Positions 6,098 to 43,222 of a stretch of DNA of 64,000 nt are shown here, piece after piece. This DNA comes from Pollenia angustigena (lineage: Eukaryota; Arthropoda; Insecta; Diptera; Polleniidae), in NCBI GenBank assembly GCA_930367215.1, contig OV884059.1, positions 51,678,957 through 51,742,956 of the forward strand, written 5' to 3'. Both the position numbers and the translations under genes were made by a program. The notes below the pieces were generated by a model. That model made no database searches and was not told where the DNA came from. It saw nothing but the letters and a program-made list of their open reading frames with translations. Each line of letters opens with the position of its first letter. Position 1 is the stretch's first letter.

Positions 6098-6102
6098 CGC
6101 CA

Positions 6103-6143
6103 CACAGTGGCTGAAAATTTTATTTCATTGGCCAAAAGTCCAA
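6103..6143 (+). repeat. Left terminal inverted repeat with RSS-like layout
   Basis: It begins with the heptamer CACAGTG, identical to the consensus V(D)J recombination signal heptamer. After 22 bp comes CCAAAAGTC, an A-rich nonamer-like block that matches ACAAAAACC at 6 of 9 positions. It pairs with the right end at 10029-10068. Confidence 0.85.
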
Positions 6144-6460
6144 TTTTTGTTTGTCACCGATTTCAAAAATTTTAATTTGATTTAATAGAAAACATATTAA
6201 AACTAAGGTAGCCAAACAATTTGGTGAAAATATTGGTAATTGTGGGTGTGACATGTTGTTAACCACAACTTTTTTTTTAATTTAGAAAAAAGTATTTTTT
6301 TTTTAATATTTAATCCGAAAGAAATTATCATTGCACAAAAACTATAAGCGATAATGACCTGCTTGCTTTTCTGCTAGGTTGGTAGTCTTGTTATCTTTAA
6401 AAAGGTAATATTTGCGACCGTTGTGTTATTTATATTTGAGATGCTAGGACATATTTTCTA

Positions 6461-7160
6461 AACTACTATATTTTTCTCAAATTTCAACTTTAATACAATA
6501 GAACTTTTGCGGCCCAAAAGGGACCAAGAAGGTGAAACCACTGATAGAAAGGTGAAAGTGTTTTCTTTTACCCTGTATATACTCTTGTACCCGTTTTGAC
6601 CCGTCTGTTCAACACTTTTTTAATTTTAATGAAATTACTCAAAAAAAAATTTCGAAACTACTATATTTTTGTCAAATTTCAACTTTAGTACAATAGAACT
6701 TATGCGGCCCAAAAGGGACCAAGATGGTGAAACCACTGATAGAAAGGTGAAAGTGTTTTCTTTTACCCTGTATATACTCTTGTACCCGTTTGGACCCGTC
6801 TGTTTAACACTTTTTTAATTTTAATGAAATTACTCAAAAAAAAATTTCTAAACTACTATATTTTTGTCAAATTTCAACTTTAGTACAATAGAACATTTGC
6901 GGCCCAAAAGGGACCAAGAAGGTGAAACCACTGATAGAAAGGTGAAAGTGTTTTCTTTTACCCTGTATATACTCTTGTACCCGTTTGGACCCGTCTGTTT
7001 AACACTTTTTTAATTTTAATGAAATTACTCCAAAAAAATTTCTAAACTATGTACTATATTTTTGTCATATTTCAACTTTAGAAGAATAAAACTTTTGCGA
7101 CCCAAAAGGGATTAAGAAGGTAAAACCACTGATAGAAAGGTAATTTTAATGAAATTACTC
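6461..7160. repeat. 195-bp tandem repeat inside the RAG1-like element
   Basis: Units start at about 6461, 6656, 6851 and 7045. Each carries AACTACTATATTTTTGTCAA, GCGGCCCAAAAGGGACCAAG and CTGTATATACTCTTGTACCC. The first two spacings are exactly 195 bp. The fourth unit is truncated. They lie in the 5' non-coding part of the transposon, so they may have arisen within it. Confidence 0.9.
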
Positions 7161-7721
7161 AGAAAAAAAAAATTTTTTTTTAATTGTTTTTTAAAATTTT
7201 TTTATTCCGCAAAAATGTTTGCAGAAGTAACAGAAATCATGTGCTATTGTCTTCAAAAAAATTTTGTGATATAGGGAAAACTGATCGTGATCGAACATAA
7301 TACAGGTAGTGCATATTAAATTTTTTATTAATGTTACACAATCAGAAAAACGTATAGCTACCCTGATTCATCCTTATCCGTTACACTACGTTCACACTAG
7401 CGTATTCTATAGTAGAATAAAGAGCTTATACACGCGTTTACGCTAAACAGGTATATTGTGACTCCCACCTTAGAAGGGCTTTTTGGTCTTTTATTTTATC
7501 TGTTTTTATGACTCTAATAATAGTCCATGACCCTATAGCTATGCAATGCGTTGTTAAATTTGTGTCAGGTATTTTATAGCATATAAATGAAAGGATTTTA
7601 AGTTTTTTAATCCTTTTTATTCTACCTGTACTTGGTATGAAAAGGTTTAAAAGCAAGTGACATTCGGATGCAAACTCAGTGGATATAATATATCTGAGCA
7701 ATAACAACGTTTTTCATAAAC

Positions 7722-9535
7722 ATGGAGAGCTTCAGCTATAAAGAATTGACCGGAGAGTATTTTAGAAACAAAAACGAGGAAGATGTTAAAAATTACATTC
7801 GAAAAAAAGGAAACTTAAATTCTTAGAGACCACAAAAATCGCTGGACAACTGTAGCGATAGATCTAAGAGGCGGAAGCTTAAGGATATAAATGAAGAAAT
7901 CGGATATGAAAATATTCAAGATACTTTCCTACATCAATTGCGATCACAGAAACAATTGACAAAAGTGGATATCATTGAAAAAGTTGTTAAAGCTAGTCCA
8001 TTGAGAACAAAACGGATTCTTAAAAGTATACCAACTCCAAGCGATGCAAAACAATTCACAAATGAGGAGGCATTAGCATTATTTCTGGATTTGAAATTAA
8101 CAAAACAGCAATATATACAGCTCAGATTGCGTGCGATTGAAAAAGGCTCAAATCTGTATCCAGCATATCATCACATAAAATCTGCTAAAATGGACTGTTT
8201 GCCATTAAAGGACACTATTACAATCACATCAATTTCGGCAGAGGTACAACTACAATCTCTACTTGATCACACATCCGAACGCTTGCTACAATCAATAAAA
8301 GGAAATGAGTTAAAGAAATATGGAAACACAAAGTTAATTCTTTTTTGTAAATGGGGATGTGATGGTTCTTCCGGACAAAAACAATACAAACAAGTAGTAT
8401 GTGAAAATATTTCGGACTCAGATATGTTCATGGTATCATTTGTACCATTGCGATTAAAAAAGATTTTGGAAGATTCAGAGCCTTCGACAAGTACAACGCA
8501 AACAAAGGATATTTGGAAAAATGAGACACCATCTTCTATGAAATATTGCAGACCTATAATAATTAATAAAGAAGTTAGTGATATCAAGGCCCAAATTGCA
8601 ATGCTACAGCCATTACAGTTAGATTTAGATGGGCAGCAAATTGAAGTTAGCTACCAATTAGTGCTAACAATGATAGATGGAAAAGTAGGCCGGGCTTTGA
8701 CTAACACGAAGGCTGAATCCAGCTGCATCATATGCCATGCAACATCAAGCCAATTAAACCAAGTCCCGACAAAATCATTAGATAATACTGATACATATGA
8801 ATTTGGATTATCACCACTACATGCAAGAATACGACTTATGGAACACATACTTAAAATCAGTTATGATTTGGATTTCGGATCTTCACGATCAATAAGAAAC
8901 AACGAAACCAACAAGGAGTTAAGAAGTTCAAAAAGGAAACATGTTCAAGATGAATATCGCAAATTTGGGTTGATTATAGATCAGCCGAAACAAGGGTCAG
9001 GCAATACAAATGATGGCAATACCGCAAGAAGATTCTTTTCAGATCCAGAAACAGCATCTGAAATAACAGGTGTTGATTTTAACCTAATTTTTAGATTTAA
9101 AATAATCCTGGAAGTACTTGCGTGCAATGAAGAAATTGACTCTAGAAAATTTGGAGATTTTGCTAAGGAAACTGCAAAAATATATACAACCAAGTACCCA
9201 TGGAGAAATATGTCTGCTACAGTTCACAAAATCCTTTATCATGGAGAAGATATCATTAAATATCAGTTGGTGCTACTTGGAGATTTATCAGAGGAAGCTC
9301 AGGAAAAAAGGAATAAGGATTACAGATTTTATAGAGAGCACAATACTAGAAAAATTTCACGAAATTTAATATGTTATTGGCAACGTCAGATCCGTTTATC
9401 TCCAGTATTCGAAATCAATGGAAAGTGGAACATCGGGATTTAGATGAAGAAGTCAAAAAACTACTTAAGAACAGAAATAACACAGAACAAAATATGGAAT
9501 ATTTGCAATCAATCTTTCAATTAAATGAACAGTAA
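7722..9535 (+). pseudogene. RAG1-like DDE transposase (broken)
   Basis: The reading starts at ATG 7722. A TAG at 7824 interrupts it after 34 codons, then the same frame is open from 7827 to 9443. Counting the codon at 7938 as 1, the open part shows the RAG1 catalytic core. It has D142 (KWGCDGSSG), D247 (TMIDGKV) and E456 (SEEAQEKRNKD), matching mouse D600, D708 and E962. The zinc pair C263/C266 (CIICHAT) and H430/H435 (VHKILYHG) match C727/C730 and H937/H942. GNTARRFF resembles the RAG1 GNFARKLM. The frame changes near 9365: the conserved tail LLATSDPFISSIR continues in another frame to a stop at 9533-9535. The full product would be about 600 residues. This is a transposase in transposon context, not a host immune gene. 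Confidence 0.9.
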
Positions 9536-10028
9536 TTATAATTCATTAGATCAAAGACAGACATTGTATTAGTAAAAAATAATAATAAACAGAAGCTCAC
9601 GTTGTTACAAAAGCTATTAAAATCTTTTGCTGCTATTATTCATACATTATCCACATATGTATGAAATGTTTTAGTAAATAAGAATAAATAAGTAAACAAA
9701 TTTGAAAGCAAAAAATTGTTTATTTTTCAGCAATAATAGCAAAATTTCCAGTGGATTTTACTATTTTTTTTTATGTTAAAATTTTTTTTATAGTAAGCAT
9801 TTAATTATTTGAGTGTCCCATTATTACAAAAAATGTTAATGATTATTATTGAAATCAAAAAATTAAATTTTTAAATAAATAAAAGAATTATTAAAACCAA
9901 GTTCCACTTTGTTCCACTCAATAACTACTCAACCGATTTTAATGAAATTTAAAGTGAAGAAAGTTTAAGAATCTAACTGTCGATTAAAAAAAATTTCACT
10001 AAAATATCTCCTTCGGTTCAAAAGTTAC

Positions 10029-10068
10029 AGATTTTTGGCCAATGAAGAACGATTTTCAGCCACTGTGC
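10029..10068 (-). repeat. Right terminal inverted repeat with RSS-like layout
   Basis: Read on the minus strand from 10068 it starts CACAGTG and, after a 22-bp spacer, has CCAAAAATC, which matches the nonamer ACAAAAACC at 7 of 9 positions. It matches the left end over about 36 bp with a few substitutions. Confidence 0.85.
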
Positions 10069-10073
10069 GCCAT

Positions 10074-10890: not shown

Positions 10891-12419
10891 ATGAGCCTCA
10901 CAAATACTCCCATTGTGGTAAGCTCCCCGAGCGTGAGCAATGAAAACATTCGATACCCAGAATTAAATAAAATTTATTTAAGTGCAAAAATTGCCAGCGC
11001 AACTGGTTTTCCATACAGCAATTTAAGTGCAAGTGTGCCAACCTGAGCAAGTGCTGATCCGACCGTAAATGTGGTTCAAAGTGTGAAGTCGTCTGACCAG
11101 AGGAATAATAACGAAAAACCTGGAACATCACGATTAGCATTAATAAATACAGGAGCTGTGGCAAAAAGTACTAAAGTGCAAACAGGCATGGACAGATATA
11201 TTACAATAACTAAGAGAAAGGCTAGCCCTAGGTCCACCCAACAGGAACGCATGGCCAAACAATACAAAGGCTCTAACGTAGTCTCTTTGCCAACAAATGG
11301 TAACATATTCTCTGTACTATCCATACCTGACGATGAAGAAGCAGAATCAGCACATGGAACAGCCACTAAAGAAGTTAAACCGCCCCCTATCTATCTGCGG
11401 GAGCAAACATCAAATAGCGTAGTCAACATGTTGATTCAACTGGTAGGTAAGAATAATTTCTACGTCGTTTCTATACGACGCGGGCAAATTCAAGAAACCA
11501 AAATTCAAGCCAGTACAGAAACGAACTTACGTATTATATCAAGACACCTGGACGCAGAAAATAAAAGTTACTATACATATCAATTAAAAAGTGCTAAGGG
11601 ATTGATTATTGTCATAAAAGGCATAGATAGTTCTGTTCCTACAGAGGAAATAAAATCTGCCATAGAGCTAGAGGGGTATGAGGTAAAATCTGTTCATAAC
11701 ATTTTGAACAGGAATAAAGTTCCTCAACCAATGCACCGCGTTGAAATATCGTTTGATTCATCGGTTCTCAAAACCAAAAATTCAGTTCATCCCATATACA
11801 ACTTGCGCTACCTACTCAACAGAAGAATAACTGTTGAGGAGCCATTAAAACGAAAGGGTCCCTCCCAATGCACAAACTGCCAGGAATATGGGCATACAAA
11901 ATCATATTGTAAATTGCCTCACGTATGTGTGGTTTGTGGCGACGCTCATAAAACCGCCGAATGTAATCGTTCTAAAGCTGACCCGAATGTTAAGAAATGC
12001 AGCAACTGTGGCGAAAATCACACGGCAAACTATAGGGGTTGTAGAGTCTTCTTGCATTTAAAAAAACCTGCTTTAGTTCAAAAATATACTCACTCCCAAT
12101 ATGGTCCGTCACATGCGCCCAGCCAAGCCGCTGGCTCTATTGCTAGTACTTCACAAACAAACAATCAAAACCAATCATATGCCCAAGTCTTAAAAGGAAA
12201 CCCTAATGCGAAAAATCCCCCGAGTACTTCTAACGCAAAGCAACCTCCAAACGCTAATGTTCCTAGGGAAGGTCTACAAATGCCTTCTGGAAATATGCCT
12301 ACCTCAATTGAAAATTTAATTCAAACTATGAATAACTTCATGGTCACTATGCAGAACATGTTTTAGGAAATGATGCGAAACCAGAACATGATCCTGCAAG
12401 TTCTACTCAACAAAAAATG
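10891..12419 (+). pseudogene. Jockey-A ORF1, gag-like protein (two stops)
   Basis: The reading starts at ATG 10891 (MSLTNTP, as in the copy at 60811). A TGA at 11044-11046 interrupts it, then it is open from 11047 to a TAG at 12364. Without that TAG (CAA in the copy near 62309) it would run to the TGA at 12418-12420, overlapping the ORF2 start. The N-terminal half is low complexity and basic (KRKASPRSTQ). It is followed by a PPPIYLRE motif and an RRM-like segment (YTYQLKSAKGLIIVIKGI). Three intact CCHC-type knuckles span about 11866-12030. The product binds its own RNA and forms the particle. Compared with the 60.8-kb copy, about 39 bp are deleted near the start. Confidence 0.88.
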
Positions 12420-13193
12420 AACCAGTTAAAAATATGTTTCTGGAATGCAAACGGGTTATCCCAACATAAACACGAAGTTGCAAACTTTCTTCATAGGCAT
12501 GAAATCGACGTACTTCTTGTCTCTGAAACACACTTTACTCATAAAAACTGCTTTAGGGTAAATGGATACCTTACGTATGACACAAAACATCCCAGCGGAC
12601 GAGCCTGTGGTGGCACAGCCATAATTGTGCACAAACACATCAGACACTTGCCATTGCCAGAGTACGAAGAAGATTGTATCCAGGCCACATCTATAAATCT
12701 TACTGATTTCAATCTAACGTTAACATCCGTTTATTGTCCCCCGAGGCACAAAATTGTAAACGATAAATTTCTCAACTTCTTCTCCACATTGGGCCAGAAA
12801 TTCATTGCTGCTGGCGACTACAACGCTAAACATATATATTGGGGCTCCAGACTTATTAGTCCTAGAGGTAATCAGCTATACAATACCGTAACTGCAAATA
12901 ATTTTGATGTGGTATCGAGTGGTAAGCCTACCTATTGGCCAACCGACTTCAATAAGCTACCAGACCTTATTGACTTTGCTGTAATTAAAAACATCAAGCG
13001 CGATCAGGTACTAGTTAGTTCCTCCTATGACCTTTCGTCTGATCATTCACCTTCAATCCTCATTTTAAAAGGTAACTCTGACGCTGCAGCTGTAAACTTT
13101 ATTTCCTATCCAAACAGAAACACAAATTGGTTAAAGTATAAAATATATGTGAGCTCTCACCTATGCACTGTTTCCCCTAAAAAATTCATCTGA
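12417..13193 (+). pseudogene. Jockey-A ORF2, endonuclease domain
   Basis: First part of ORF2, starting at ATG 12417, which overlaps the ancestral ORF1 stop as ATGA. It is an apurinic-like endonuclease of about 220 residues with the landmarks WNANGL, SETH, GGTAIIVH, SVYCPPRH, AAGDYNAKH and SSDHSP. The catalytic E, D/N and SDH residues are all present. It nicks target DNA to prime reverse transcription. The frame is lost near 13165: one base is missing compared with the copy at 63600, so the ORF ends early at 13193 and the reverse transcriptase is read in the next frame. Confidence 0.9.
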
Positions 13194-13227
13194 CATCCAA
13201 ATAGCTGTTGACCGATTTACAGAAGTC

Positions 13228-15072
13228 TTGGATACTGCAGCAAGAAATGCAACCCCAATCAAGCGGACAATTAAACGTGCTCCTTACAATACATCGACGG
13301 ATATAGAGGCCGTTATCAGAGAAAAAAGGAAGTTAAGAAGACAATGGCAAAACAGTCGTTCCCCAACCACTAAGGCCCAACTACAATTATGCCTGACCAC
13401 ACTTCGCAACAAATTGAGACAGAACCACGAGTGCGCAATAGAAGGCTATCTAAACAGCCTAGACGCCACAAAAAACTCCAATTATAGCTTATGGAAGGCT
13501 GTACGGCAAATGAAATGCCCTATAACCCAAGAATCTTCATTAAGACTGGAAAACCGCACTTGGGCCAAAAACACACATGAAAAATTAAACGCTTTCGCGG
13601 GCCACCTTGAGAAAGTTTTCACGCCACATGATGCACATACTTGTTCCTGTCGTCCAATCATTCCTGATAAGGTAAACCATCCATTAAAATTTAACATAAC
13701 TCAAGTAAAATCTGCAATAGGAAAAGTGAATGTTAGAAAATCTCCCGGACCTGACCGCATCACAGGGTCAATGATAAGAAACCTACCATCTGCTTCCAGA
13801 ATTTTGCTGCTCATTTTGAACGCTATATTAAGAGTCGGATACTTCCCATCCTCATGGAAGAGGTCTATAATTGTTATGATTCCCAAGCCAGGAAAAGATG
13901 CTAGCCAGGTTGCGTCGTACAGACCGATAAGCTTATTGTCAATCCTATCGAAGCTTTTCGAACAAATATTCGTTTTAAGTATAACTCCTCATCTAAATGA
14001 ACATGACATCATCCCGGACCACCAGGTCGGATTCAGAGCGAAACATGGTACAATAGAACAAGTGCATAGGATTGTCACCCTTATTAGATCGGCGTTTGAG
14101 AAAAAGCAATACTGCTCAGCACTGTTTATAGACATTTCCCAAGCTTTTGACAAAGTTTGGCATGATGGGCTACTCATCAAAATAAAACGAATGCTTCCTC
14201 AAAACACTCACAAGCTTCTGGAGAGCTATCAAACAGGCAGAACATTCATAGTAAGGTCGCAAGATAAATACTCCCCCCTCAAGAAAATTTCTGCTGGTGT
14301 TCCCCAAGGCAGCATATTAGGACCGCTTCTATATATAATATACACAGCGGATATGCCAACAAACCTGAGCACGCATACCTCTACATTTGCAGACGACACA
14401 GCATTTATTAGCGTTAACCATGACCCAAAAGTCGCATCGCAAAATCTGCAGTCCCACATCAATGAACTAGAGGCCTGGCTAGAAAAATGGAGAATAAAGG
14501 TTAACCCGGCTAAATGTGCTCACTTAACTTTCACGCTCAGAAGACAAACGTGCCCAGCTGTAAAAATAAATAACATCACTGTTCCGGTAGAAAACCATGT
14601 TAAGTACTTGGGAATTCATATAGATAGACGCTTGACCTGGTCGCGTCATATTGAAGCGAAAATAACGGCTATGAAACTTAAAGCAGCTCAACTACATTGG
14701 CTTCTCGGTCGAAACTCAAAATTGTCCTTAGACAACAAAATTCTCTTATACAAGTCCATCATAAAACCAATATGGACATATGGCATCCAATTATGGGGTA
14801 CTGCATGCGCATCTAACATCCAAAAGCTTCAAAGAAGACAGTCTAGAATATTACGACAAATTGTCTGCGCCCCATGGTATATACGTAATGAAATTATCCA
14901 CAGAGATCTCAACGTCCCCACTATCCAGGAGGAAATTAAAAAATATTCAATAAGCTACATCGATAAACTAATGGTCCACCCTAACTACCTCGCTCGGGGT
15001 TTGCTTCAGTTCGAAGGTCACCAGAGGCTAAAAAGAACCGATACTTTGAGCCTAACTAGAAGACATTTTTAA
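13228..15072 (+). pseudogene. Jockey-A ORF2, reverse transcriptase domain
   Basis: A 614-codon open stretch continuing ORF2 after a frameshift. Reverse transcriptase landmarks in order: KSPGPDRITGSMI, SWKRSIIVMIPKPGKD, YRPISLLSILSKLFE, the palm motif ALFIDISQAFDKVWH, AGVPQGSILGPLLY and the active site FADDTAF. The thumb-like KYLGIHIDRRLTW follows. A C-terminal region ends HPNYLARGLLQ...RLKRTDTLSL, characteristic of the Jockey clade. The catalytic aspartates are intact. There is no RNase H domain. The stop is at 15070-15072. Confidence 0.92.
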
Positions 15073-15199: not shown

Positions 15200-15770
15200 A
15201 AAACAAAAAATATTTGGTTCATTTAGTAGTTCATAACTACTGTCTTACGCCTAATAAATCATTGAGGCCCGTTTTCACAACTTGGGATTTATTGGCCGTA
15301 TAAAAAGTTCTCCATTATTAAATTGGCAACATTGGTGTCATTTAGATGTGTATATAAGTCGCTCTGTTTACTTTTATAAATTCAATTGTTTTGTGATTCG
15401 CTGTAAAGCTAATAAACATATTTTTAACAACATATCCCTTTGTGCTGTCGGTGTCATTGGAGTGTGTGCATCTGGGAGTGCGGTTTTTGTGATAATCAAA
15501 GGATAAAATTGTACGTATTTTGTTACTTGTGACCTGTTCTTGTAGTGGATCGTATTTTTCTTTTCTGTGGATAACATTCTGCATCTACTGTCAGCTGATC
15601 TAATTTGTTCCATATATTTGTAATTACAACTCTAACTGGTTTGTGTATTTGCTATTTTAATCGCTAAGCGCCATCTATTGGATAGTAGGATTGTATACCC
15701 AACAAACAATTTTCTTTTAAAACAATTTTGTTTTAAAATATATATAAACACTTATAAATTGGATGATATC

Positions 15771-16590
15771 ATGGCGTGTATTATGAAAAAATGTCCCATT
15801 ACCAACGATGAAGAGATGATGATTTCTTGTTGGTTATGTAATGGTCTTTGCCATATTAAATGCAGTGGTCTTTCCGGTCTTGTTGCTGGATCATTGTCGA
15901 AAGATAATGGACTTGCTTGGCGCTGTAATGATTGCAAGAAAATAAGCATTACATTCTATCGTTTTTTCCAATCAAATAAATCCCGTTTTTTGGAAATTCA
16001 AGAAGAAGCAAATAAACTTTTTGATAAAATATCACAATATGCTAAAATTTTTGATGATTTTAATGCTTTAGAATCTATAAAATCTCCTGTTCAAACATCA
16101 CCGAAAGGGAAATCTGCAAGGTTAAACAATAAAGTAAAGTTGACTGAACCTTCTTCTTTGCCATCTTTGCCTCAGAATCCCGAACCCGCTTCTTCATCTG
16201 TTAATGATCGTGGGCTAACTCTTCTAAGCAAAACATCCGTTCCAACTAATAACTGTGCTGCTATAAAAGATCTGAGAGTGATCCCACAAAAAAAAACAAA
16301 TCTTTGTATCTCGTTTTGCATCTGATACATCTGTTGACGACATTGATGCGTATATTAAATCTAAGATCGGCAAAAATTTTGATTTGAATGTTCATAAGTT
16401 TACTTACTCGCAAGCGCGGATTATCACATCATTTAAGCTTACTGTTCCATTTGAAATTTTTAACTCCATTCTCGACCCATCTTTTTGGCCTGAACATGTC
16501 TTAGTTCGAGAATATGAACAAAATATAAACCGGCGTCCAACGAATGTTGCTTATTTGCCGAAACAACAATTATTACATTCAAAAAACTAA
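15771..16590 (+). pseudogene. CR1-clade ORF1 with PHD-like finger (frameshifted)
   Basis: The ATG at 15771 (MACIMKKC) was chosen as start because the upstream in-frame part is AT-rich 5' UTR without similarity. Residues 2-50 form a C4HC3 PHD-like zinc finger: CPITNDEEMMISCWLCNGLCH, then IKC and WRCNDC. Fingers of this type occur in ORF1 of arthropod CR1 elements. A Ser/Pro-rich linker follows. The frame shifts in a run of nine A at about 16289. The continuation IFVSRFASDTSVDDIDAY runs to the stop at 16588-16590. It probably binds element RNA. Confidence 0.8.
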
Positions 16591-19424
16591 CGGATGCTCC
16601 CGACGATCAACTCATTATTATATACCAAAACGTACGTGGAATGAGGACTAAATGCTCCAAATTTTATGTCGATAGTTTAAATTTCAATCACCACATAATT
16701 TGTCTAACTGAGACTTGGCTAAATAATACTTTCTTTAATACCGAAATTGTTTGCAATAATTTTCATGTATTCCGGCGCGATAGAACTACAGTTACTACTG
16801 GCGGTGGAGTTTTAATAGCTGTCTTAAATACATTTCCTGCTGAAGAGCTAATATTAAACTTAGCAAGTAAAATTGAATTTATTGCAGTGGTAGTAAAAGT
16901 AAACAACATTAAAATATTTATTACATGTTCTTATATCCCACCTCAATCTGATATAATTACTTATCAACAACACATTTTGGCAATGGAACAAGTGGCTTCA
17001 AAAATCAGTTTGGGTGACTTCATGTTAGTCCTTGGCGATTTTAATATACCTCAGATTACCTGGCATTTCTCCACAGAAAGTAAAACTTACATTCCTAATC
17101 GTTCTGATAACATCAGTGATGATATATTCGGTAACATTACAAATTTATGTCTTCATCAGATAAATGGCGTCTACAATATGTATGGTAAATTACTTGACCT
17201 GGTATTTGTTAATGAGCCTAAGGAATGTACAATAAATCGTGTTGATCCTATAACACTCCCAGAAGATCGTTACCACCCTACAATTGAAATTAGCTGCAAC
17301 ATTTTTAGTTGTCATCGTGTTCAAAATTTCCATAAAAAAGAAAAGGTGTTTTGTTTTAAAAGGGCAAATTACAACGACCTACATAACCTTTTAATTAACA
17401 CAAATTGGATTCAATTGTTATCCATTCGCATTGGCGCACCAGAAACAATCGATAAAATGTTTAATAATTTCTACAGTACAATAAAACAATATATGAATGA
17501 ATGTATACCAAAATTTTCACTGAGCTCAAAATCAGGACCACCATGGGGTAATAAACAACTTTCTTCGTTAAAAAACAAGAATTACAGAAAATATAAGAAA
17601 TCTGGATCCCACTGCGATTACAGCAAGTATTCCGTCCTTCGTGCAAAATACAATTTGCTAAATGCTAAATTATATAACGATTATTTGACTAAAATAAAAA
17701 ACAACTTAAAATACGATCCAAGATCATTCTATAAATTTGTAAATTCGAAAAGAAAGATCTCTGGCGCACCGAAGGTCATTAAATATATGGGTACTGAAAC
17801 ACACGATGAAAAGGAAATCAGTGATTTATTCGCCGACTTTTTTTCGTCCACATATTCTGATGCACATTGTGCTGAAAATGTCAATTATCCATTTAATATA
17901 GTTACTGGTCAAACTATTTCATTTTCACCAATAACCACACTTAATATTATCAATTGCTTAAAATCTTTTTAATATTCAAACTCAATGGGTCCTGATGGTA
18001 TACCAAGCAGTATTTTAATCAACTGTATGGAAGCTTTAGCAATGCCGTTGTCAATTATTTTTAATATTTCTTTGAAAAATGGATATTTTCCAAAAATATG
18101 GAAAGAGTCATATTTAATTCCTTTGTTCAAATCTGGAAATAAATCAAATATAATTAATTACAGAGGTATAGCCAAACTTAGCGCAATTCCAAAACTTTTT
18201 GAAAAATGCATTTTAGATTCATTGGTTCATCAAGTTTCACCGTTATTAACATCTTTTCAACACGGATTTCGTAAAGAATCATCAACTTTGACAAATATTT
18301 TAGAACTGACAACTTTGGTAAATGAGGGATTCGTCAACAACCAGCATACCGACGTTATATATACCGACTTCAGTAAGGCATTTGATAAGGTAAATCACAA
18401 CCTTCTTTTGAGAAAAATTGATATTATGGGTTTCGACAAAACTTGTTTAAGCTGGCAGAATACAATGCGTAAAATTTGGGTTTTCAACTTCTTAACCTAT
18501 ATTGGTAAAATCCGGTGTTCCGCAAGATAGTCACCTTGGCCCACTTTTGTTTCTGCTCTTCATCAACGACATGCCTGATATTATTAAACATTCACATATA
18601 CTAATGTTCGCAGATGATGTAAAAATTTTTTTAAACTTCACGAACTCTTTAGACCATATTTTTCTTCAAGAAGACTTGGATACCTTTTATAATTGGTGTA
18701 AACATAACCTAATGAAATATAAACATATGCGCTTTTCTAGAAAACGTAGTATTTTAAATAACTATAAACTCGGTGACTATAAAATCGAGATAGCTGACAC
18801 ACTTATGGATCTTGGCATCTTACTGGATGTAAAATTGGATTTTATTCAACACATAACAATGACTGTCAACAGGGCTCGTTGTACTCTGGCTTTTATAAAA
18901 CGTTGGGCGAAGGAATTCCATGATACTTTCGTCACTAAACAACTTTACACATCTCTCGTTAGACCAATCTTGGAATACGGCTCGATTGTATGGGATCCAC
19001 ATTATATGGTTCATAGTGATCATATTGAATCCATTCAAAACAATGCTTGCTTTTTTGCCTGAGAGATACATATCGAGGATATGATAATCTCCCCTCATAT
19101 TCTACAAGATTATCTTTAATACGTTTGCCAACACTGAAAAGTCGCAGAGTTATGCTAAATGTCTCATTTGTAATTAACTTAATAAATGGAAAAGTATGCT
19201 TGAATTTTTTATTAAGTAGTTTATCATTTAACATTCCACGACGTACGGTACGGTACTATAATCCCTTATTTATAAAAACTTTCCGAACTAACTATGCTAT
19301 GGCAGACCCATTTAGAAAACTGTGTTGTTGCTTCAATGAAATGTTTGAATTTATTGATTTTTCTCTGGATTTAAATATTGTTAAACGTAATATTATACTT
19401 AAGTTAAATACTCATTTGTATTAG
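16583..19424 (+). pseudogene. CR1-clade ORF2, endonuclease and reverse transcriptase
   Basis: The endonuclease (16583-17340) has YQNVRGMRTK, LTETWLN, GGGVLIAV, VLGDFNIP and RYHPTIEI. The NVRG-RTK start is the style of arthropod CR1/T1/Q elements. The reverse transcriptase (17980-18900) has MGPDGIPSSI, NYRGIAKLS, IYTDFSKAFDKVNH, SGVPQDSHLGP and an intact FADD box (18610). The C-terminal region ends with RTNYAMADPFRK. Breaks: TAA at 17970-17972, a frameshift and small deletion near 18470-18530, and another frameshift near 19055. The 3' end is an A/T-rich TTAAATAAAATAAA near 19462-19475, with no long poly(A). Confidence 0.85.
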
Positions 19425-21720: not shown

Positions 21721-21774
21721 AATTCGAGCCCATTTTAAGTATTTTACTGCATATTTCGAAATCATAGTTTTAAC

Positions 21775-24700
21775 ATTAACATTAAGATCCTTGTGAATAT
21801 TTGAGTTTTTAACATACTAAAAGGCCGCTGTGATTATTCGAAGAAGTTTGTTTTGGCGCCTCTGAATTTTTTCGATATTAGAGGCCGAGGCAGTGCCGCA
21901 TACCTGAATACGATAGTACCAGATTGGCTTTAAGATGGAGTTGTAAATTATAAGTTTGTAGTCGAAACTAAGGACAGAGTTACTTCCAATAAGCCAATGA
22001 ATTTGAATGGCTTTTAGTTTCATTTGAGTTAATTTGCCTCTTTATGGCTTTTCCACGTTAAACGGTGATCTGGATGAATACCGAGGGATTTTAACATGCG
22101 AATTTTGATTTTAATTAGGGGCATGATTCCCGACGCAAGGTGAATGTTCTATGTACGCATTTTTGCTCATTGACCTTTATCTTCCATTGCTTTAACCACA
22201 TTTCGAGTTGAAAAATATGATCCTGTAGGTTTTGAGATGCTTCTTGACTGTTTTCGTGCACGCTTAGAGAAGCTGTATCAGCAGCAAATGTTGAAGTTTG
22301 GGTGTAGTTGCTTGTTGGCATATCCGAGGTATATATTAAGTATAAAAGTGGGCCCAGGATACTTCCCTCAGGGCGGAGGAGAGCTTAAATAATCACCTTC
22401 TTTAATAATAAACTTTTGATGGACTTAGCAGCTTTCTAACAGCTTATGCGTGTTTACTGGTAAGTTAAGCTTCAATTTATGTAATTATCTTTATCAGAAG
22501 CTTGAGAAAAATCGATGAAGAGAGCGGAACAATATTTTCTTTCTTCAAACGCTTTTCTTATTGCTATACTATACTATACGATGGGTTTGTTAAATTGTGC
22601 TGTGATCTCTTCCAAAGCCGAACTGGTGGTTAGGAATACATCTGTTTTCATTTAAAATTGGGGTTAATTTTGGCGCTAACAGCTTTGATATATATGAAAG
22701 TAAGCTTATTGGCCTATATGACTCAACTTTTGTGTGATCCTTTCCTGGTTTAGGTATCATGATGACTTAGGAAACCTTCCACTCTTGGGGATAGTATTCA
22801 AGGCGTAAAATAGCATTAAAAATTAAAAGAATAATTTTCTTTGCTTTGCTGGGTAGCTCCAAAAGCATTTTGTAGCTGATCTTATCAAAACCAGGAGCCT
22901 TCTTGTGGTTTAAATCACATATAGCTTTTTCGATTTCTCTCATCTCAAATCTTAGGGGAACAGCTGCTCTATTTTACGTATTTTAAATGATTAACAAACA
23001 GATTTCATTTTTCAACATCATTTCTTGCCCAACTTCCATTCAAGTTTCTTAATGGTGCTTTAGAGACAATAGGCTTTTTGAGATTTCTGGCTGAACGCCA
23101 TAATGAGTAGTCTGATTGTGGAGTTGCATCAAGTTCCTTTAAATATTTTTCCAGAAGCCGTTTTCTGAGTCTGCAGAATTTTTCTAAGCTTTTTTGTATA
23201 CTCTTTTAGTACGTTCTTAAGTTGAGGGGATCTGTGCAATTCCCACTCTCTTCGAGCCCTCCTTTTTTCAGACAAGAGACGCTCGACATCTGTGGAATAT
23301 ATTTTAATAGTTTTTGTTTTTTTGGGGGCAATATTGGAATGTTGAACAAGTTTCAAATAACTGTAAAAATTGTCAATAGAGCCATTTACATACTCCGGTG
23401 TACTGAGCGGAATATATTCTGTTCAATAGGTACTGAGATATTTTTTATATTTTAACCAATTAAGGTACAATTCTATTGGGGTTCATTAAAGTAACAATTG
23501 TAGGTGTGTGGTCGGAAGATAATTCTAGGGAAGCTTGAACATGAATCGTTCTCTATGGGGATGTTTTAACCACGCCGAAATCGATGATATCTGGATTTTT
23601 TGATGATCAGTAGGCCAATATGTTGGTTGTCCGCTCGCTACCACATTTAAATCCATTTTAGAAATTGTGTTAAATAAAACACGACCCTTTGGTGTTATAA
23701 GTCGTAAACCCTGGAAGGTATGTTTAGCGTTATAATCGCCAGCGGCTAGAAAACACGGTCCTAATGATTAAAAATATTTATAATATTGGCTTTCTGATAT
23801 TGAAAATCTAGGCGGGGAGTATAGCGATGAAATTACTAGGTTTCTATTTAATTCCTCAACGCAAATGTTCGTTGCTTGGAGATAATCTTCACGATGATCA
23901 CACATTAGGTAGTGTTTGACTCGGATTTTTATTAAAATGCCAGAACATCCACAAGCTCTATCTTGAGGGTCCTTGGTATCATATAGTATATAACCATTGA
24001 TTTTAAACGTATTTCTTGAGGTTGTAACGACACGTTTACCGCTGGTTGCTGGGGTAGGCTAAACGGAGTCCAGGTTCGGTGAATAGCCAAATAAATCACA
24101 CCACGATGTCTCCACACATTTCAAATTATATTTATTAGCTTAAACAATTAGTTACTAACTTAACAAACAACACTACATTTACAAGTCGGTAGATTAAGCC
24201 GGCAGTGGGAGCACAGAGGAGAATCAAGCTAGTACACGGTTTGCCCACACACGTACTTTCTTGCCTCTACCCTCGCGCTAGGAATTGAAAGCACTTGCCT
24301 AGGTACCCCACAGGTAATGCTCTCACTTCCTCTCTACACTAGCCTAGCAATGCCAATAATAGTTCTACTTAAAATGTGTATCCACCTTCTTAAGTAGTGC
24401 TTACCCTTAGGCTGGTCAGATCTGATGGTCCAAGCTCTACTTAAATGTGTAGCCAACTGTCTTAAGTAGGTCTTCTCCCATGTCGATCGGTACACCGACT
24501 CCCTCGCATCAGTTGATGTTCGCCCTTTTATACCATTGTGCTTTTCATACAATTCAGTTCTATTATATATAAAAATCATGATCCTGTGGTTAGCAAAACA
24601 AGGACAGCGACTTTGCTCGCTACAAGGTCAAATGAGTTTCAGAAGCCATCATCAATTTGATTATTTTTAAGAAAGTATTCTAATTCATTTTTATGTTGGC

Positions 24701-26264: not shown

Positions 26265-26760
26265 CACTATGCTAGTTGAAAAAACAGACAAGCCGGGCAC
26301 ATGGCGTTTTAACATAATTCGGGGACGCTGAATCCAGTGGTGGCCGCGGTTTTTTCAGATTGGCTCTGGTTTTCGAGATATACCGTTATTTCGAAAATGG
26401 AGGAGGTTGCACAACATATGTTCGCGTAACTCAAAAACGGTTTAGTTTATTGAAATTACTAAAAAATCGAAATTCCGCAATAAAATTTCATTTCAGAAAC
26501 ACACAACCCTTTTTCTAATATGAGTAGTCGTTATTGAAACATATTTTTTTTTTTTTAAAAAAAAAATTAATTATTTTATCAAAATTTTGAAATTTTTGTT
26601 TTTTAAAAATTCATAAAAAATTAAAAAATGCAGCTAGGCTTCTAATTTTTTGCAGACTTATAAAAAACGAAGCTACAAACAAAACAAGTCATAAATCATT
26701 AAAATCTGTTTGCAACTTTTATTCACAAAAGTCGACAAATTTTAATTAACTTAAAAATTC
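26265..26760 (+). repeat. R repeat copy 1, left part
   Basis: Starts CACTATGCTAGTT. Shared blocks are GACAAGCCGGGCACATGGCG, CGAGATATACCGTTATTTCG, GCAGCTAGGCTTCTA and GTCGACAAATTTTAATTAA. Compared with copies 2 and 3, it is interrupted after TTAAAAATTC by the satellite block and resumes at 39375. The superfamily is unknown. Confidence 0.8.
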
Positions 26761-28249
26761 AACATTTTTCATTTTTCGAATTTATTCTATGAGCTAAATT
26801 TGAGTTATGTATTTTATAAAGCTTTTTTGTAATATGTAGTTCTATTCCTACAATTTTTCAGAAATGACTTTATACACTACCAGACTATTATATTGTATTT
26901 TCTTTTTTACATTTTACCTTAGCCTTCCGTTGGAAAGCAATGTGGTATATTGAATGTACAGAAAAATTTACAATTATTAGACACCAGCAGAATGTAATGC
27001 ATTTTCTGGCCCGCTACGGCCGTCGTCAGCATTCTTTGTGTCTCACTGGATAGTGTTACTTTATAAATTGAATGTATTTAACTCAACTATTTTAACAAAT
27101 AGAAACTGGGAATTATTTCCTTCCGAAGGTAACTTTATATTATATTCAACATTTTTAATTTTTCGAATTTATTCTATGAGCTAAATTTCAGTTATGTATT
27201 TTATAAAGCTTTTTTGTAATAGTTCTATTCCTACAATTTTTCAGAAATGACTTTATACACTACCAGACTATTATATTGTATTTACTTTTTTACATTTTAC
27301 CTTGGCCTTCCGTTGGAAAGCAATGAGGTATATTGAATGTACAGAAAAATTTACAATTATTAGACACCAGCAGAATGTAATGCATTTTCTGGCCCGCTAC
27401 GGCCGTCGTCAGCATTCTTTGTGTCTCACTGGATAGTGTTACTTTATAAATTGAATGTATTTAACTCAACTATTTTAACAAATAGAAACTGGGAATTATT
27501 TCCTTCCGAAGGTAACTTTATATTATATTCAACATTTTTCATTTTTCGAATTTATTCTATGAGCTAAATTTCAGTTATGTATTTTATAAAGCTTTTTTGT
27601 AATAGTTCTATTCCTACAATTTTTCAGAAATGACTTTATACACTACCAGACTATTATATTGTATTTTCTTTTTTACATTTTACCTTAGCCTTCCGTTGGA
27701 AAGCAATGAGATATATTGAATGTACAGAAAAATTTACAATTATTAGACACCAGCAGAATGTAATGCATTTTCTGGCCCGCTACGGCCTATGCCATAAAAT
27801 ACATAACTGAAATTTAGCTCATAGAATAAATTCGAAAAATGAAAAATGTTGAATATAATATAAAGTTACCTTCGGAAGGAAATAATTCCCAGTTTCTATT
27901 TGTTAAAATAGTTGAGTTAAATACATTCAATTTATAAAGTAACACTATCCAGTGAGACACAAAGAATGCTGACGACGGCCGTAGCGGGCCAGAAAATGCA
28001 TTACATTCTGCTGGTGTCTAATAATTGTAAATTTTTCTGTACATTCAATATACCTCATTGCTTTCCAACGGAAGGCTAAGGTAAAATGTAAAAAAGAAAA
28101 TACAATATAATAGTCTGGTAGTGTATAAAGTCATTTCTGAAAACTTGTAGGAATAGAACTATTACAAAAAAGCTTTATAAAATACATAACTGAAATTTAG
28201 CTCATAGAATAAATTCGAAAAATGAAAAATGTTGAATATAATATAAAGT

Positions 28250-31200
28250 TACCTTCGTAAGGAAATAATTCCCAGTTTCTATTTGTTAAAATAGTTGAGT
28301 TAAATACATTCAATTTATAAAGTAACACTATCCAGTGAGACACAAAGAATGCTGACGACGGCCGTAGCGGGCCAGAAAATGCATTACATTCTGCTGGTGT
28401 CTAATAATTGTAAATTTTTCTGTACATTCAATATACCTCATTGCTTTCCAACGGAAGGCTAAGGTAAAATGTAAAAAAGAAAATACAATATAATAGTCTG
28501 GTAGTGTATAAAGTCATTTCTGAAAAATTGTAGGAATAGAACTATTACAAAAAAGCTTTATAAAATACATAACTGAAATTTAGCTCAGAGAATAAATTCG
28601 AAAAATGAAAAATGTTGAATATAATATAAAGTTACCTTCGGAAGGAAATAATTCCCAGTTTCTATTTGTTAAAATAGTTGAGTTAAATACATTCAATTTA
28701 TAAAGTAACACTATCCAGTGAGACACAAAGAATGCTGACGACGGCCGTAGCGGGCCAGAAAATGCATTACATTCTGCTGGTGTCTAATAATTGTAAATTT
28801 TTCTGTACATTCAATATACCTCATTGCTTTCCAACGGAAGGCTAAGGTAAAATGTAAAAAAGAAAATACAATATAATAGTCTGGTAGTGTATAAAGTCAT
28901 TTCTGAAAAATTGTAGGAATAGAACTATTATAAAAAAGCTTTATAAAATACATAACTGAAATTTAGCTCATAGAATAAATTCGAAAAATGAAAAATGTTG
29001 AATATAATATAAAGTTACCTTCGGAAGGAAATAATTCCCAGTTTCTATTTGTTAAAATAGTTGAGTTAAATACATTCAATTTATAAAGTAACACTATCCA
29101 GTGAGACACAAAGAATGCTGACGACGGCCGTAGCGGGCCAGAAAATGCATTACATTCTGCTGGTGTCTAATAATTGTAAATTTTTCTGTACATTCAATAT
29201 ACCTCATTGCTTTCCAACGGAAGGCTAAGGTAAAATGTAAAAAAGAAAATACAATATAATAGTCTGGTAGTGTATAAAGTCATTTCTGAAAAATTGTAGG
29301 AATAGAACTATTACAAAAAAGCTTTATAAAATACATAACTGAAATTTAGCTCATAGAATAAATTCGAAAAATGAAAAATGTTGAATATAATATAAAGTTA
29401 CCTTCGTAAGGAAATAATTCCCAGTTTCTATTTGTTAAAATAATTGAGTTAAATACATTCAATTTATAAAGTAACACTATCCAGTGAGACACAAAGAATG
29501 CTGACGACGGCCGTAGCGGGCCAGAAAATGCATTACATTCTGCTGGTGTCTAATAATTGTAAATTTTTCTGTACATTCAATATACCTCATTGCTTTCCAA
29601 CGGAAGGCTAAGGTAAAATGTAAAAAAGAAAATACAATATAATAGTCTGGTAGTGTATAAAGTCATTTCTAAAAAATTGTAGGAATAGAACTATTACAAA
29701 AAAGCTTTATAAAATACATAACTGAAATTTAGCTTATAGAATAAATTCGAAAAATGAAAAATGTTGAATATAATATAAAGTTACCTTCGGAAGGAAATAA
29801 TTCCCAGTTTCTATTTGTTAAAATAGTTGAGTTAAATACATTCAATTTATAAAGTAACGCTATCCAGTGAGACACAAAGAATGCTGACGACGGCCGTAGC
29901 GGGCCAGAAAATGCATTACATTCTGCTGGTGTCTAATAATTGTAAATTTTTCTGTACATTCAATATACCTCATTGCTTTCCAACGGAAGGCTAAGGTAAA
30001 ATGTAAAAAAGAAAATACAATATAATAGTCTGGTAGTGTATAAAGTCATTTCTGAAAAATTGTAGGAATAGAACTATTACAAAAAAGCTTTATAAAATAC
30101 ATAACTGAAATTTAGCTCATAGAATAAATTCGAAAAATGAAAAATGTTGAATATAATATAAAGTTACCTTCGGAAGGAAATAATTCCCAGTTTCTATTTG
30201 TTAAAATAGTTGAGTTAAATACATTCAATTTATAAAGTAACACTATCCAGTGAGACACAAAGAATGCTGACGACGGCCGTAGCGGGCCAGAAAATGCATT
30301 ACATTCTGCTGGTGTCTAATAATTGTAAATTTTTCTGTACATTCAATATACCTCATTGCTTTCCAACGGAAGGCTAAGGTAAAATGTAAAAAAGAAAATA
30401 CAATATAATAGTCTGGTAGTGTATAAAGTCATTTCTGAAAAATTGTAGGAATAGAACTATTATAAAAAAGCTTTATAAAATACATAACTGAAATTTAGCT
30501 CATAGAATAAATTCGAAAAATGAAAAATGTTGAATATAATATAAAGTTACCTTCGGAAGGAAATAATTCCCAGTTTCTATTTGTTAAAATAGTTGAGTTA
30601 AATACATTCAATTTATAAAGTAACACTATCCAGTGAGACACAAAGAATGCTGACGACGGCCGTAGCGGGCCAGAAAATGCATTACATTCTGCTGGTGTCT
30701 AATAATTGTAAATTTTTCTGTACATTCAATATACCTCATTGCTTTCCAACGGAAGGCTAAGGTAAAATGTAAAAAAGAAAATACAATATAATAGTCTGGT
30801 AGTGTATAAAGTCATTTCTGAAAAATTGTAGGAATAGAACTATTACAAAAAAGCTTTATAAAATACATAACTGAAATTTAGCTCATAGAATAAATTCGAA
30901 AAATGAAAAATGTTGAATATAATATAAAGTTACCTTCGTAAGGAAATAATTCCCAGTTTCTATTTGTTAAAATAATTGAGTTAAATACATTCAATTTATA
31001 AAGTAACACTATCCAGTGAGACACAAAGAATGCTGACGACGGCCGTAGCGGGCCAGAAAATGCATTACATTCTGCTGGTGTCTAATAATTGTAAATTTTT
31101 CTGTACATTCAATATACCTCATTGCTTTCCAACGGAAGGCTAAGGTAAAATGTAAAAAAGAAAATACAATATAATAGTCTGGTAGTGTATAAAGTCATTT

Positions 31201-31330
31201 CTAAAAAATTGTAGGAATAGAACTATTACAAAAAAGCTTTATAAAATACATAACTGAAATTTAGCTTATAGAATAAATTCGAAAAATTAAAAATGTTGAA
31301 TATAATATAAAGTTACCTTCGGAAGGAAAT
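28250..31330. repeat. Four-monomer higher-order duplication (1,532 bp)
   Basis: Diagnostic variants repeat at exactly 1,532 bp (4 x 383). TAATTGAGTT occurs at 29441 and 30973, CTTCGTAAGG at 29402 and 30934, and the CTAAAAAATTG and GCTTATAGAAT variants follow the same spacing. Limits are approximate. Confidence 0.85.
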
Positions 31331-31602
31331 AATTCCCAGTTTCTATTTGTTAAAATAGTTGAGTTAAATACATTCAATTTATAAAGTAACACTATCCAGT
31401 GAGACACAAAGAATGCTGACGACGGCCGTAGCGGGCCAGAAAATGCATTACATTCTGCTGGTGTCTAATAATTGTAAATTTTTCTGTACATTCAATATAC
31501 CTCATTGCTTTCCAACGGAAGGCTAAGGTAAAATGTAAAAAAGAAAATACAATATAATAGTCTGGTAGTGTATAAAGTCATTTCTGAAAAATTGTAGGAA
31601 TA

Positions 31603-34600
31603 GAACTTTTACAAAAAAGCTTTATAAAATACATAACTGAAATTTAGCTCATAGAATAAATTCGAAAAATGAAAAATGTTGAATTTAATATAAAGTTACC
31701 TTCGGAAGGAAATAATTCCCAGTTTCTATTTGTTAAAATAGTTGAGTTAAATACATTCAATTTATAAAGTAACACTATCCAGTGAGACACAAAGAATGCT
31801 GACGACGGCCGTAGCGGGCCAGAAAATGCATTACATTCTGCTGGTGTCTAATAATTGTAAATTTTTCTGTACATTCAATATACCTCATTGCTTTTCAACG
31901 GAAGGCTTAGGTAAAATGTAAAAAAGAAAATACAATATAATAGTCTGGTAGTGTATAAAGTCATTTCTGAAAAATTGTAGGAATAGAACTATTACAAAAA
32001 AGCTTTATAAAATACATAACTGAAATTTAGCTCATAGAATAAATTCGAAAAATGAAAAATGTTGAATATAATATAAAGTTACCTTCGGAAGGAAATAATT
32101 CCCAGTTTCTATTTGTTAAAATAGTTGAGTTAAATACATTCAATTTATAAAGTAACACTATCCAGTGAGACACAAAGAATGCTGACGACGGCCGTAGCGG
32201 GCCAGAAAATGCATTACATTCTGCTGGTGTCTAATAATTGTAAATTTTTCTGTACATTCAATATACCTCATTGCTTTCCAACGGAAGGCTAAGGTAAAAT
32301 GTAAAAAAGAAAATACAATATAATAGTCTGGTAGTGTATAAAGTCATTTCTGAAAAATTGTAGGAATAGAACTATTACAAAAAAGCTTTATAAAATACAT
32401 AACTGAAATTTAGCTCATAGAATAAATTCGAAAAATGAAAAATGTTGAATATAATATAAAGTTACCTTCGTAAGGAAATAATTCCCAGTTTCTATTTGTT
32501 AAAATAGTTGAGTTAAATACATTCAATTTATAAAGTAACACTATCCAGTGAGACACAAAGAATGCTGACGACGGCCGTAGCGGGCCAGAAAATGCATTAC
32601 ATTCTGCTGGTGTCTAATAATTGTAAATTTTTCTGTACATTCAATATACCTCATTGCTTTCCAACGGAAGGCTAAGGTAAAATGTAAAAAAGAAAATACA
32701 ATATAATAGTCTGGTAGTGTATAAAGTCATTTCTGAAAAATTGTAGGAATAGAACTATTATAAAAAAGCTTTATAAAATACATAACTGAAATTTAGCTCA
32801 TAGAATAAATTCGAAAAATGAAAAATGTTGAATATAATATAAAGTTACCTTCGGAAGGAAATAATTCCCAGTTTCTATTTGTTAAAATAGTTGAGTTAAA
32901 TACATTCAATTTATAAAGTAACACTATCCAGTGAGACACAAAGAATGCTGACGACGGCCGTAGCGGGCCAGAAAATGCATTACATTCTGCTGGTGTCTAA
33001 TAATTGTAAATTTTTCTGTACATTCAATATACCTCATTGCTTTCCAACGGAAGGCTAAGGTAAAATGTAAAAAAGAAAATACAATATAATAGTCTGGTAG
33101 TGTATAAAGTCATTTCTGAAAAATTGTAGGAATAGAAGTATTACAAAAAAGCTTTATAAAATACATAACTGAAATTTAGCTCATAGAATAAATTCGAAAA
33201 ATGTTGAATATAATATAAAGTTACCTTCGGAAGGAAATAATTCCCAGTTTCTATTTGTTAAAATAGTTGAGTTAAATACATTCAATTTATAAAGTAACAC
33301 TATCCAGTGAGACACAAAGAATGCTGACGACGGCCGTAGCGGGCCAGAAAATGCATTACATTCTGCTGGTGTCTAATAATTCTAAATTTTTCTGTACATT
33401 CAATATACCTCATTGCTTTTCAACGGAAGGCTAAGGTAAAATGTAAAAAAGAAAATACAATATAATAGTCTGGTAGTGTATAAAGTCATTTCTGAAAAAT
33501 TGTAGGAATAGAACTATTACAAAAAAGCTTTATAAAATACATAACTGAAATTTAGCTCATAGAATAAATTCGAAAAATGAAAAATGTTGAATATAATATA
33601 AAGTTACCTTCGGAAGGAAATAATTCCCAGTTTCTATTTGTTAAAATAGTTGAGTTAAATACATTCAATTTATAAAGTAACACTATCCAGTGAGACACAA
33701 AGAATGCTGACGACGGCCGTAGCGGGCCAGAAAATGCATTACATTCTGCTGGTGTCTAATAATTGTAAATTTTTCTGTACATTCAATATACCTCATTGTT
33801 TTCCAACGGAAGGCTAAGGTAAAATGTAAAAAAGAAAATACAATATAATAGTCTGGTAGTGTATAAAGTCATTTCTGAAAAATTGTAGGAATAGAACTAT
33901 TACAAAAAAGCTTTATAAAATACATAACTGAAATTTAGCTCATAGAATAAATTCGAAAAATGAAAAATGTTGAATATAATATAAAGTTACCTTCGGAAGG
34001 AAATAATTCCCAGTTTCTATTTGTTAAAAAAGTTGAGTTAAATACATTCAATTTATAAAGTAACACTATCCAGTGAGACACAAAGAATGCTGACGACGGC
34101 CGTAGCGGGCCAGAAAATGCATTACATTCTGCTGGTGTCTAATAATTGTAAATTTTTCTGTACATTCAATATACCTCATTGCTTTCCAACGGAAGGCTAA
34201 GGTAAAATGTAAAAAAGAAAATACAATATAATAGTCTGGTAGTGTATAAAGTCATTTCTGAAAAATTGTAGGAATAGAACTTTTACAAAAAAGCTTTATA
34301 AAATACATAACTGAAATTTAGCTCATAGAATAAATTCGAAAAATGAAAAATGTTGAATTTAATATAAAGTTACCTTCGGAAGGAAATAATTCCCAGTTTC
34401 TATTTGTTAAAATAGTTGAGTTAAATACATTCAATTTATAAAGTAACACTATCCAGTGAGACACAAAGAATGCTGACGACGGCCGTAGCGGGCCAGAAAA
34501 TGCATTACATTCTGCTGGTGTCTAATAATTGTAAATTTTTCTGTACATTCAATATACCTCATTGCTTTTCAACGGAAGGCTTAGGTAAAATGTAAAAAAG

Positions 34601-39374: not shown

Positions 39375-39530
39375 AATTTAAAAATTTCATAAAACGCAAT
39401 ATTTGTATGGGAGCCCCCTAAGGGATGGTGATAAAGGGAAAGTATAATTTGAGAAAATGTTAAGAACAAAAAACTAGTGGAGGCCAGTCATACATTTTAT
39501 CCCACTAGGAGTGACTCCTAGGCAGTTTTG
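39375..39530 (+). repeat. R repeat copy 1, right part
   Basis: Continues R after the satellite: AATTTCATAAAACGCAATAT, GGGAGCCCCCTAAGGGATGG and GGAGGCCAGTCATACATTTT, as in 51205-51340. It diverges at about 39530, so the rest of R is missing here. Confidence 0.8.
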
Positions 39531-42900: not shown

Positions 42901-43222
42901 TCCATCCAATTTAGCAACCATAACAGTGTTATTGTATATATTTATATATTTGAAATCATATATTTTCTGTAGAGTTTTCCGAAAACCAAATAAACATCCA
43001 CCGCTTGCACGACCAACTGCTTGAATTCTCTTCGCTTCAATCCAGTGTAAAGTAAATTTTTGAAAGTATGATGAGGAAAAAATATTGTTTGCTAGCTATT
43101 ACGTGAGTTTCAAATAAGAAAAATACATCAAATTTATTAACATATGATATGAACGTGCCAAAGTTTATTGCTTTTGATAAATTAGCTACATTATAGGATA
43201 ATAATTTAAATAAGTTAAATTG
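39998..43222 (-). pseudogene. Element D ORF2, endonuclease and reverse transcriptase
   Basis: It begins right after ORF1 (LLSYNVANLSKA, 43200). The endonuclease has LFETH, SGGCLFGF, CIVGDLNARI, SLIDYCICS and YSDHMPL. The reverse transcriptase has KAPGQDGVSYEFYK, NYRGLSLINTLCKIFNK, AFFVDFSCAFDTI, GVKQGCILSPLL and LLYADDIVIL (intact aspartates). The C-terminal end carries a zinc motif CTICNLDEPENTFHFFGVC near 40190. Breaks: a one-base frameshift near 41225 and an in-frame TAA at 40547-40549. The reading up to 42921 has no ATG nearby but is open. Otherwise the protein is nearly whole (about 1,070 residues), so this is a fairly recent insertion. Confidence 0.85.

Follow-up and report, generated by a model that had tools for sequence, protein, structure and literature searches.

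What kind of transposon carries the inverted CACAGTG ends found in this DNA, and does it stand for a lineage of its own? The stretch analysed (the window, 64,000 nucleotides in full) contains an element that the first-pass annotation had read as a RAG1-core-type transposon, possibly of a distinct RAG1-like lineage in a fly. The analysis bears out the transposon of RAG1-core type, with CAC ends, a GC-rich 5-bp duplication and no RAG2 seen among its ORFs. The distinct lineage is not supported. The element is almost certainly a one-gene DNA transposon of Transib type that has decayed, and its ancestor likely transposed by cut-and-paste.

The boundaries were determined from the inverted ends and the bases flanking them. 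The element spans 6103-10067 (3,965 bp); the start given earlier stands, and the end lies one base before the 10068 given then. The inverted ends are 38 bp long and identical at 33/38 positions, and their first 16 bases, beginning with CACAGTG, are perfect: CACAGTGGCTGAAAAT is present at 6103-6118 (+) and at 10052-10067 (-). Perfect 5-bp CGCCA repeats lie directly outside both ends, at 6098-6102 and 10068-10072; at any one specified position, five bases would match by chance with a probability of ~0.0018. The matching ends and direct repeats described in the first-pass annotation are real, with 16/16 bases at the ends and perfect flanks. The non-coding features of the element are as follows.

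6098 to 6102, no strand: left target site duplication CGCCA, identical to 10068-10072.
6103 to 6140, plus strand: 5′ terminal inverted repeat, starting CACAGTG, with the nonamer-like CCAAAAGTC after a 22-bp spacer.
6455 to 7141, no strand: 195-bp tandem repeat (3.5 copies) in non-coding sequence on the 5′ side of the element, found by repeat detection.
10030 to 10067, minus strand: 3′ terminal inverted repeat, starting CACAGTG, with the nonamer-like CCAAAAATC after a 22-bp spacer.
10068 to 10072, no strand: right target site duplication CGCCA, found by flank comparison.

A scan of the window looked for pairs of inverted 16-mers, exact in sequence and separated by 0.5-8 kb, that have the same 5-mer on each outer flank. 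The ends of the element were the single pair to qualify, and 0 such pairs turned up when the window was resampled 60 times with a first-order Markov model. When the 16-base end was searched across the window with up to 3 mismatches, it was found nowhere besides the two ends, and comparison of the homologous proteins P0001-P0003 (see below) with the window gave no match outside the element. Autonomous Transibs are typically present as one or a few copies, according to an excerpt of PMC4411706. Viral contigs searched for relatives yielded 7 pattern matches and 0 relatives. Terminal repeats that begin with CAC and a GC-rich 5-bp duplication, as in Transib, are present in this one copy. The 195-bp tandem repeat (94% matches) was perhaps amplified inside the Transib element.

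Several other repeats are present in the window. Approximately 33 units of a 383-bp satellite, matching at 97-98%, occupy 26757-39375, with opposite orientation before and after ~27790 (30/30 long matches on the minus strand). Related copies, whole or partial, of a non-LTR retrotransposon are found at 11071-15072, 47013-50954, 61036-62307 and 63675-63998 (all +), and further copies of the same group at 53-703, 53484-54212 and 21736-23296 (all -). Their ORFs are of two kinds, zinc-knuckle-like and reverse transcriptase. The copies are from 90-92% down to 42-55% alike, and therefore differ in age or family. The two organisms named among the 120 matches listed for this retrotransposon are Eumeta japonica (57%) and Bactrocera dorsalis (50%). 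Two more clusters of broken reverse-transcriptase-like ORFs, at 15678-19424 (+) and 39998-44032 (-), are 25-31% identical to the reverse transcriptase ORF at 13228-15072.

Homologues of the protein encoded within the element were collected from 7,993 candidates scored, of which 835 were retained at E <= 0.001. The closest among the 120 listed is 90% identical and 673 aa long, and the five organism names present among these 120 matches are all of insects. In a tree of 56 rows, P0001 was the sister of the window protein (98/84 support), the two belonging to a group of seven rows, and HzTransib joined these homologues at another point, on a long branch with weak support (82/32). Because the tree has a midpoint root and no RAG1 row, the choice of Transib rather than RAG1 was decided by sequence scores.

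The state of the gene was assessed by tblastn of P0001, an intact relative, against the element. Identity was seen at 486/612 columns, with 64 gaps counted, and then at 50/55 in another frame. The reading and its interruptions are listed here.

7722 to 9529, plus strand: decayed Transib transposase reading, opening with the start ATG and running to the final residue that P0001 matches (tblastn).
7824 to 7826, plus strand: in-frame stop TAG, within a region of net 54-codon loss relative to P0001.
7938 to 9443, plus strand: longest open frame, 501 aa, containing the catalytic core.
9365 to 9529, plus strand: the 55 C-terminal residues, moved to another frame by a 19-base loss relative to P0001 (tblastn).

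Three lesions were scored, against 3 of the 120 listed proteins, which are relatives and not an active copy from the same genome. Relative to P0001, the N-terminal part carries the net loss of 54 codons (~162 bases) together with the TAG stop; a 10-codon (30-base) in-frame deletion lies near 8560; and 19 bases are lost at 9365, resulting in a frameshift of the last 55 residues. The last 25 residues of the 501-aa frame, from 477 onwards, are frame-shifted. The S-D-P columns near the C-terminus are nearly invariant in the family alignment, and this region is out of frame in the element because the 19-base loss shifts the frame. Thus, the enclosed gene read earlier at 7722-9535 is present and of Transib type, but it is not open, being cut by the stop at 7824-7826 and by the frameshift near 9365. 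The description of the insertion as recent fares likewise: perfect CGCCA copies fit an insertion that is not very old, but decay of the gene is already evident.

The lesions could in principle be assembly errors in a copy that is intact, as they are known from one assembly. This is very unlikely, since three separate losses, which against P0001 amount to ~162 (net), 30 and 19 bases, would be atypical of small base-calling errors. It is even less probable that the locus is a host gene domesticated from Transib and not a dead transposon: the 501-aa frame still spans the catalytic core with its triad intact, but the element retains its two ends and the duplication, the stop cuts the N-terminus, the frame has been lost over the conserved S-D-P region at the C-terminus, and the branch of the window protein measures 0.12 against 0.042 for its intact sister, a figure inflated because 25 frame-shifted residues end its row. 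As judged from its reading frames, the decayed Transib copy is most likely unable to produce a functional transposase and, its gene being broken, most likely unable to move by itself.

The residues expected of the catalytic core were located by alignment with HzTransib and within the family. Numbers are positions in the 501-aa frame.

8361 to 8363, plus strand: first catalytic Asp, D142, aligned to the HzTransib Asp.
8676 to 8678, plus strand: second catalytic Asp, D247, aligned to HzTransib.
8724 to 8735, plus strand: zinc cysteine pair C-I-I-C (C263, C266), from the family alignment.
9225 to 9242, plus strand: zinc histidine pair H-x4-H (H430, H435), from the family alignment.
9303 to 9305, plus strand: catalytic Glu, E456, aligned to HzTransib.

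All seven residues (D142, D247, E456, C263, C266, H430 and H435) are invariant across 55 aligned sequences, 54 of them homologues chosen from the 120 listed. The D-D-E triad and zinc pairs noticed earlier are therefore present in the element and kept throughout this alignment. The zinc role of the cysteine and histidine pairs is presumed from what is known of the RAG1/Transib family. In the phmmer alignment, D142, D247 and E456 correspond to HzTransib chain residues D109, D208 and E419. A constant offset of +17 turns these into D126, D225 and E436, the triad quoted for HzTransib in a passage of PMC6941560.

To which branch of RAG1-core transposases does this protein belong? Against solved structures, the best phmmer match was HzTransib (6pqn_A, 339 bits, E 4.4e-100), and amphioxus RAG1L reached 15 bits (E 0.09). 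BLASTP of the window protein against HzTransib gave 43% identity over 448 columns. A comparison with RAG1 and Transib profiles had been proposed with the earlier reading. The Pfam RAG1 model matched neither the window protein nor P0001, and it matched 31/55 aligned members at E <= 0.01. The profile built from the 55-sequence family placed HzTransib (637 bits) far above amphioxus RAG1L (64) and vertebrate RAG1 (<=52). Pfam scans of the window protein and of P0001 matched no domain; a precomputed Pfam domain, PF26100, is annotated on many homologues and was absent from the Pfam scans of this analysis.

The predicted model of the 501-aa frame (mean pLDDT 83.7, pTM 0.78) was compared with solved structures by Foldseek. 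The best match by E-value was again HzTransib (6pqx_A, E 8.4e-35, 40% identity), with weaker matches to RAG1 (E 2.3e-17 or weaker, 14-17% identity) and to BbRAG1L (E 7.1e-16, 17%). TM-scores over the query were highest for 6pqx_A (0.78), with 0.49-0.60 for the four other HzTransib chains listed; those of RAG1 and RAG1L (0.60-0.72) are at or above these four of the five listed HzTransib chains. In the predicted model, the TM-scores thus indicate a common RAG1-type fold, and by TM-score alone Transib is not separable from RAG1. By score, E-value and identity, the protein is a RAG1-core transposase nearer to Transib than to RAG1 or RAG1L. The phmmer result, the homologues, the family profile and the best fold match all assign it to Transib.

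The content of the element outside the transposase was also analysed. No RAG2-like ORF was found in the element among ORFs of at least 60 aa or by Pfam. Outside the transposase region, the sole ORF of at least 60 aa that lies within the element is one of 89 aa on the minus strand, and neither this ORF nor three minus-strand ORFs opposite the transposase matched Pfam. The transposase reading stops only ~540 bases short of the right end of the element. The convergent RAG2-like gene of RAGL/ProtoRAG elements is thus absent by ORFs and Pfam and, at the level of ORFs of at least 60 aa, the element has the single gene of a Transib. The CTT* motif (Cx2Cx3GHx4C), which a part of PMC7204232 describes as strongly conserved in RAG1L, was not found when the element was read in its three forward frames.

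These observations bear on the proposal that the element belongs to a distinct RAG1-like (RAGL/ProtoRAG-type) lineage that has lost RAG2. Its heptamer, CACAGTG, equals the vertebrate heptamer, and RAG1 and BbRAG1L are likewise fold matches, each with a probability of 1.00; against this, the profile score is tenfold higher for HzTransib than for RAG1L, and both the CTT* motif and a RAG2-like ORF are missing from the frames and ORFs searched. The proposal is therefore extremely improbable. Some Transib ends are reported to carry the same heptamers and nonamers as the vertebrate signals (in portions of PMC6941560 and PMC8355894), and because of this CACAGTG is no evidence of a new lineage.

Recombination signals provided a further comparison for the ends of the Transib copy. 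At 22 bp past the heptamer, a nonamer-like stretch matches ACAAAAACC at 6/9 positions on the left and 7/9 on the right. The shuffling chances are ~0.02 (6/9) and 0.004 (7/9) with three neighbouring spacers allowed, and the two matches are not independent, the ends being copies of each other. At both ends, matches were 2/9 at a spacer of 12 and 5/9 at 23, with the best at 22, and a 12/23 spacer pair with nonamer was not found on the two ends. The 22-bp spacing on both ends is in keeping with a group of symmetric Transibs with 20-22 bp, given in the Figure 2 legend of PMC8355894. The protostome RAGL end, CACTWMCAAACKTYKBB with AAA at positions 8-10 (as quoted in part of PMC7204232), was considered and rejected; CACAGTGGCTGAAAAT has GCT at these positions. 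A Transib subfamily may have settled on ends with CACAGTG and an A-rich nonamer-like stretch at 22 bp on both sides, near enough to the 23-type signal to be cut by vertebrate RAG1/2, an idea that we consider unlikely.

The ends, the duplication, the triad and zinc residues and the broken frame are seen directly in the element. By analogy with HzTransib and RAG, two transposase subunits would have bound the CACAGTG ends. Nicking at the CAC border would then have left hairpins on the flanking DNA and freed blunt transposon ends, and joining of these to a GC-rich target at positions 5 bp apart would have generated the CGCCA duplication. The ends of the element might still be usable by transposase supplied from another copy.

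The best solved relative of the element is HzTransib of Helicoverpa zea (PDB 6pqn, 6pqr, 6pqu, 6pqx, 6pqy, 6pr5). Both have one transposase gene, a core over ~440 residues with D-D-E, C-x2-C and H-x4-H, terminal inverted repeats, and a GC-rich 5-bp duplication, which is GCTCG in HzTransib (an excerpt of PMC1852546). Unlike HzTransib, the element is broken, measures 3,965 bp against 3,518 bp (same excerpt), carries the 195-bp tandem repeat in its 5′ part, and encodes a protein of 43% identity. P0001-P0005, the nearest five of the 120 listed homologues, are 79-90% identical to it over 95% of the query, but they are 673-679 aa long; the comparison with them was made on their proteins. ProtoRAG, with BbRAG1L (PDB 6b40), has in common with the element the RAG1-core fold, CAC ends and 5-bp duplications. 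It differs in having RAG2L and the CTT* motif (PMC7204232, in part) and ends of CACTATG (a passage of PMC8289069), and BbRAG1L reaches 64 profile bits only. Vertebrate RAG1 with its recombination signals has the heptamer CACAGTG, the catalytic fold and D-D-E in common with the element, but acts with RAG2 on 12/23 spacers, whereas the nonamer-like stretches of the element stand at 22 bp on both ends. The element is thus real but ordinary: a degenerate Transib, from a superfamily whose kinship with the V(D)J recombinase is already known. To that superfamily it contributes a further copy, its gene broken and its ends well preserved, and these ends provide a modest data point on the closeness of Transib ends to the vertebrate signal.
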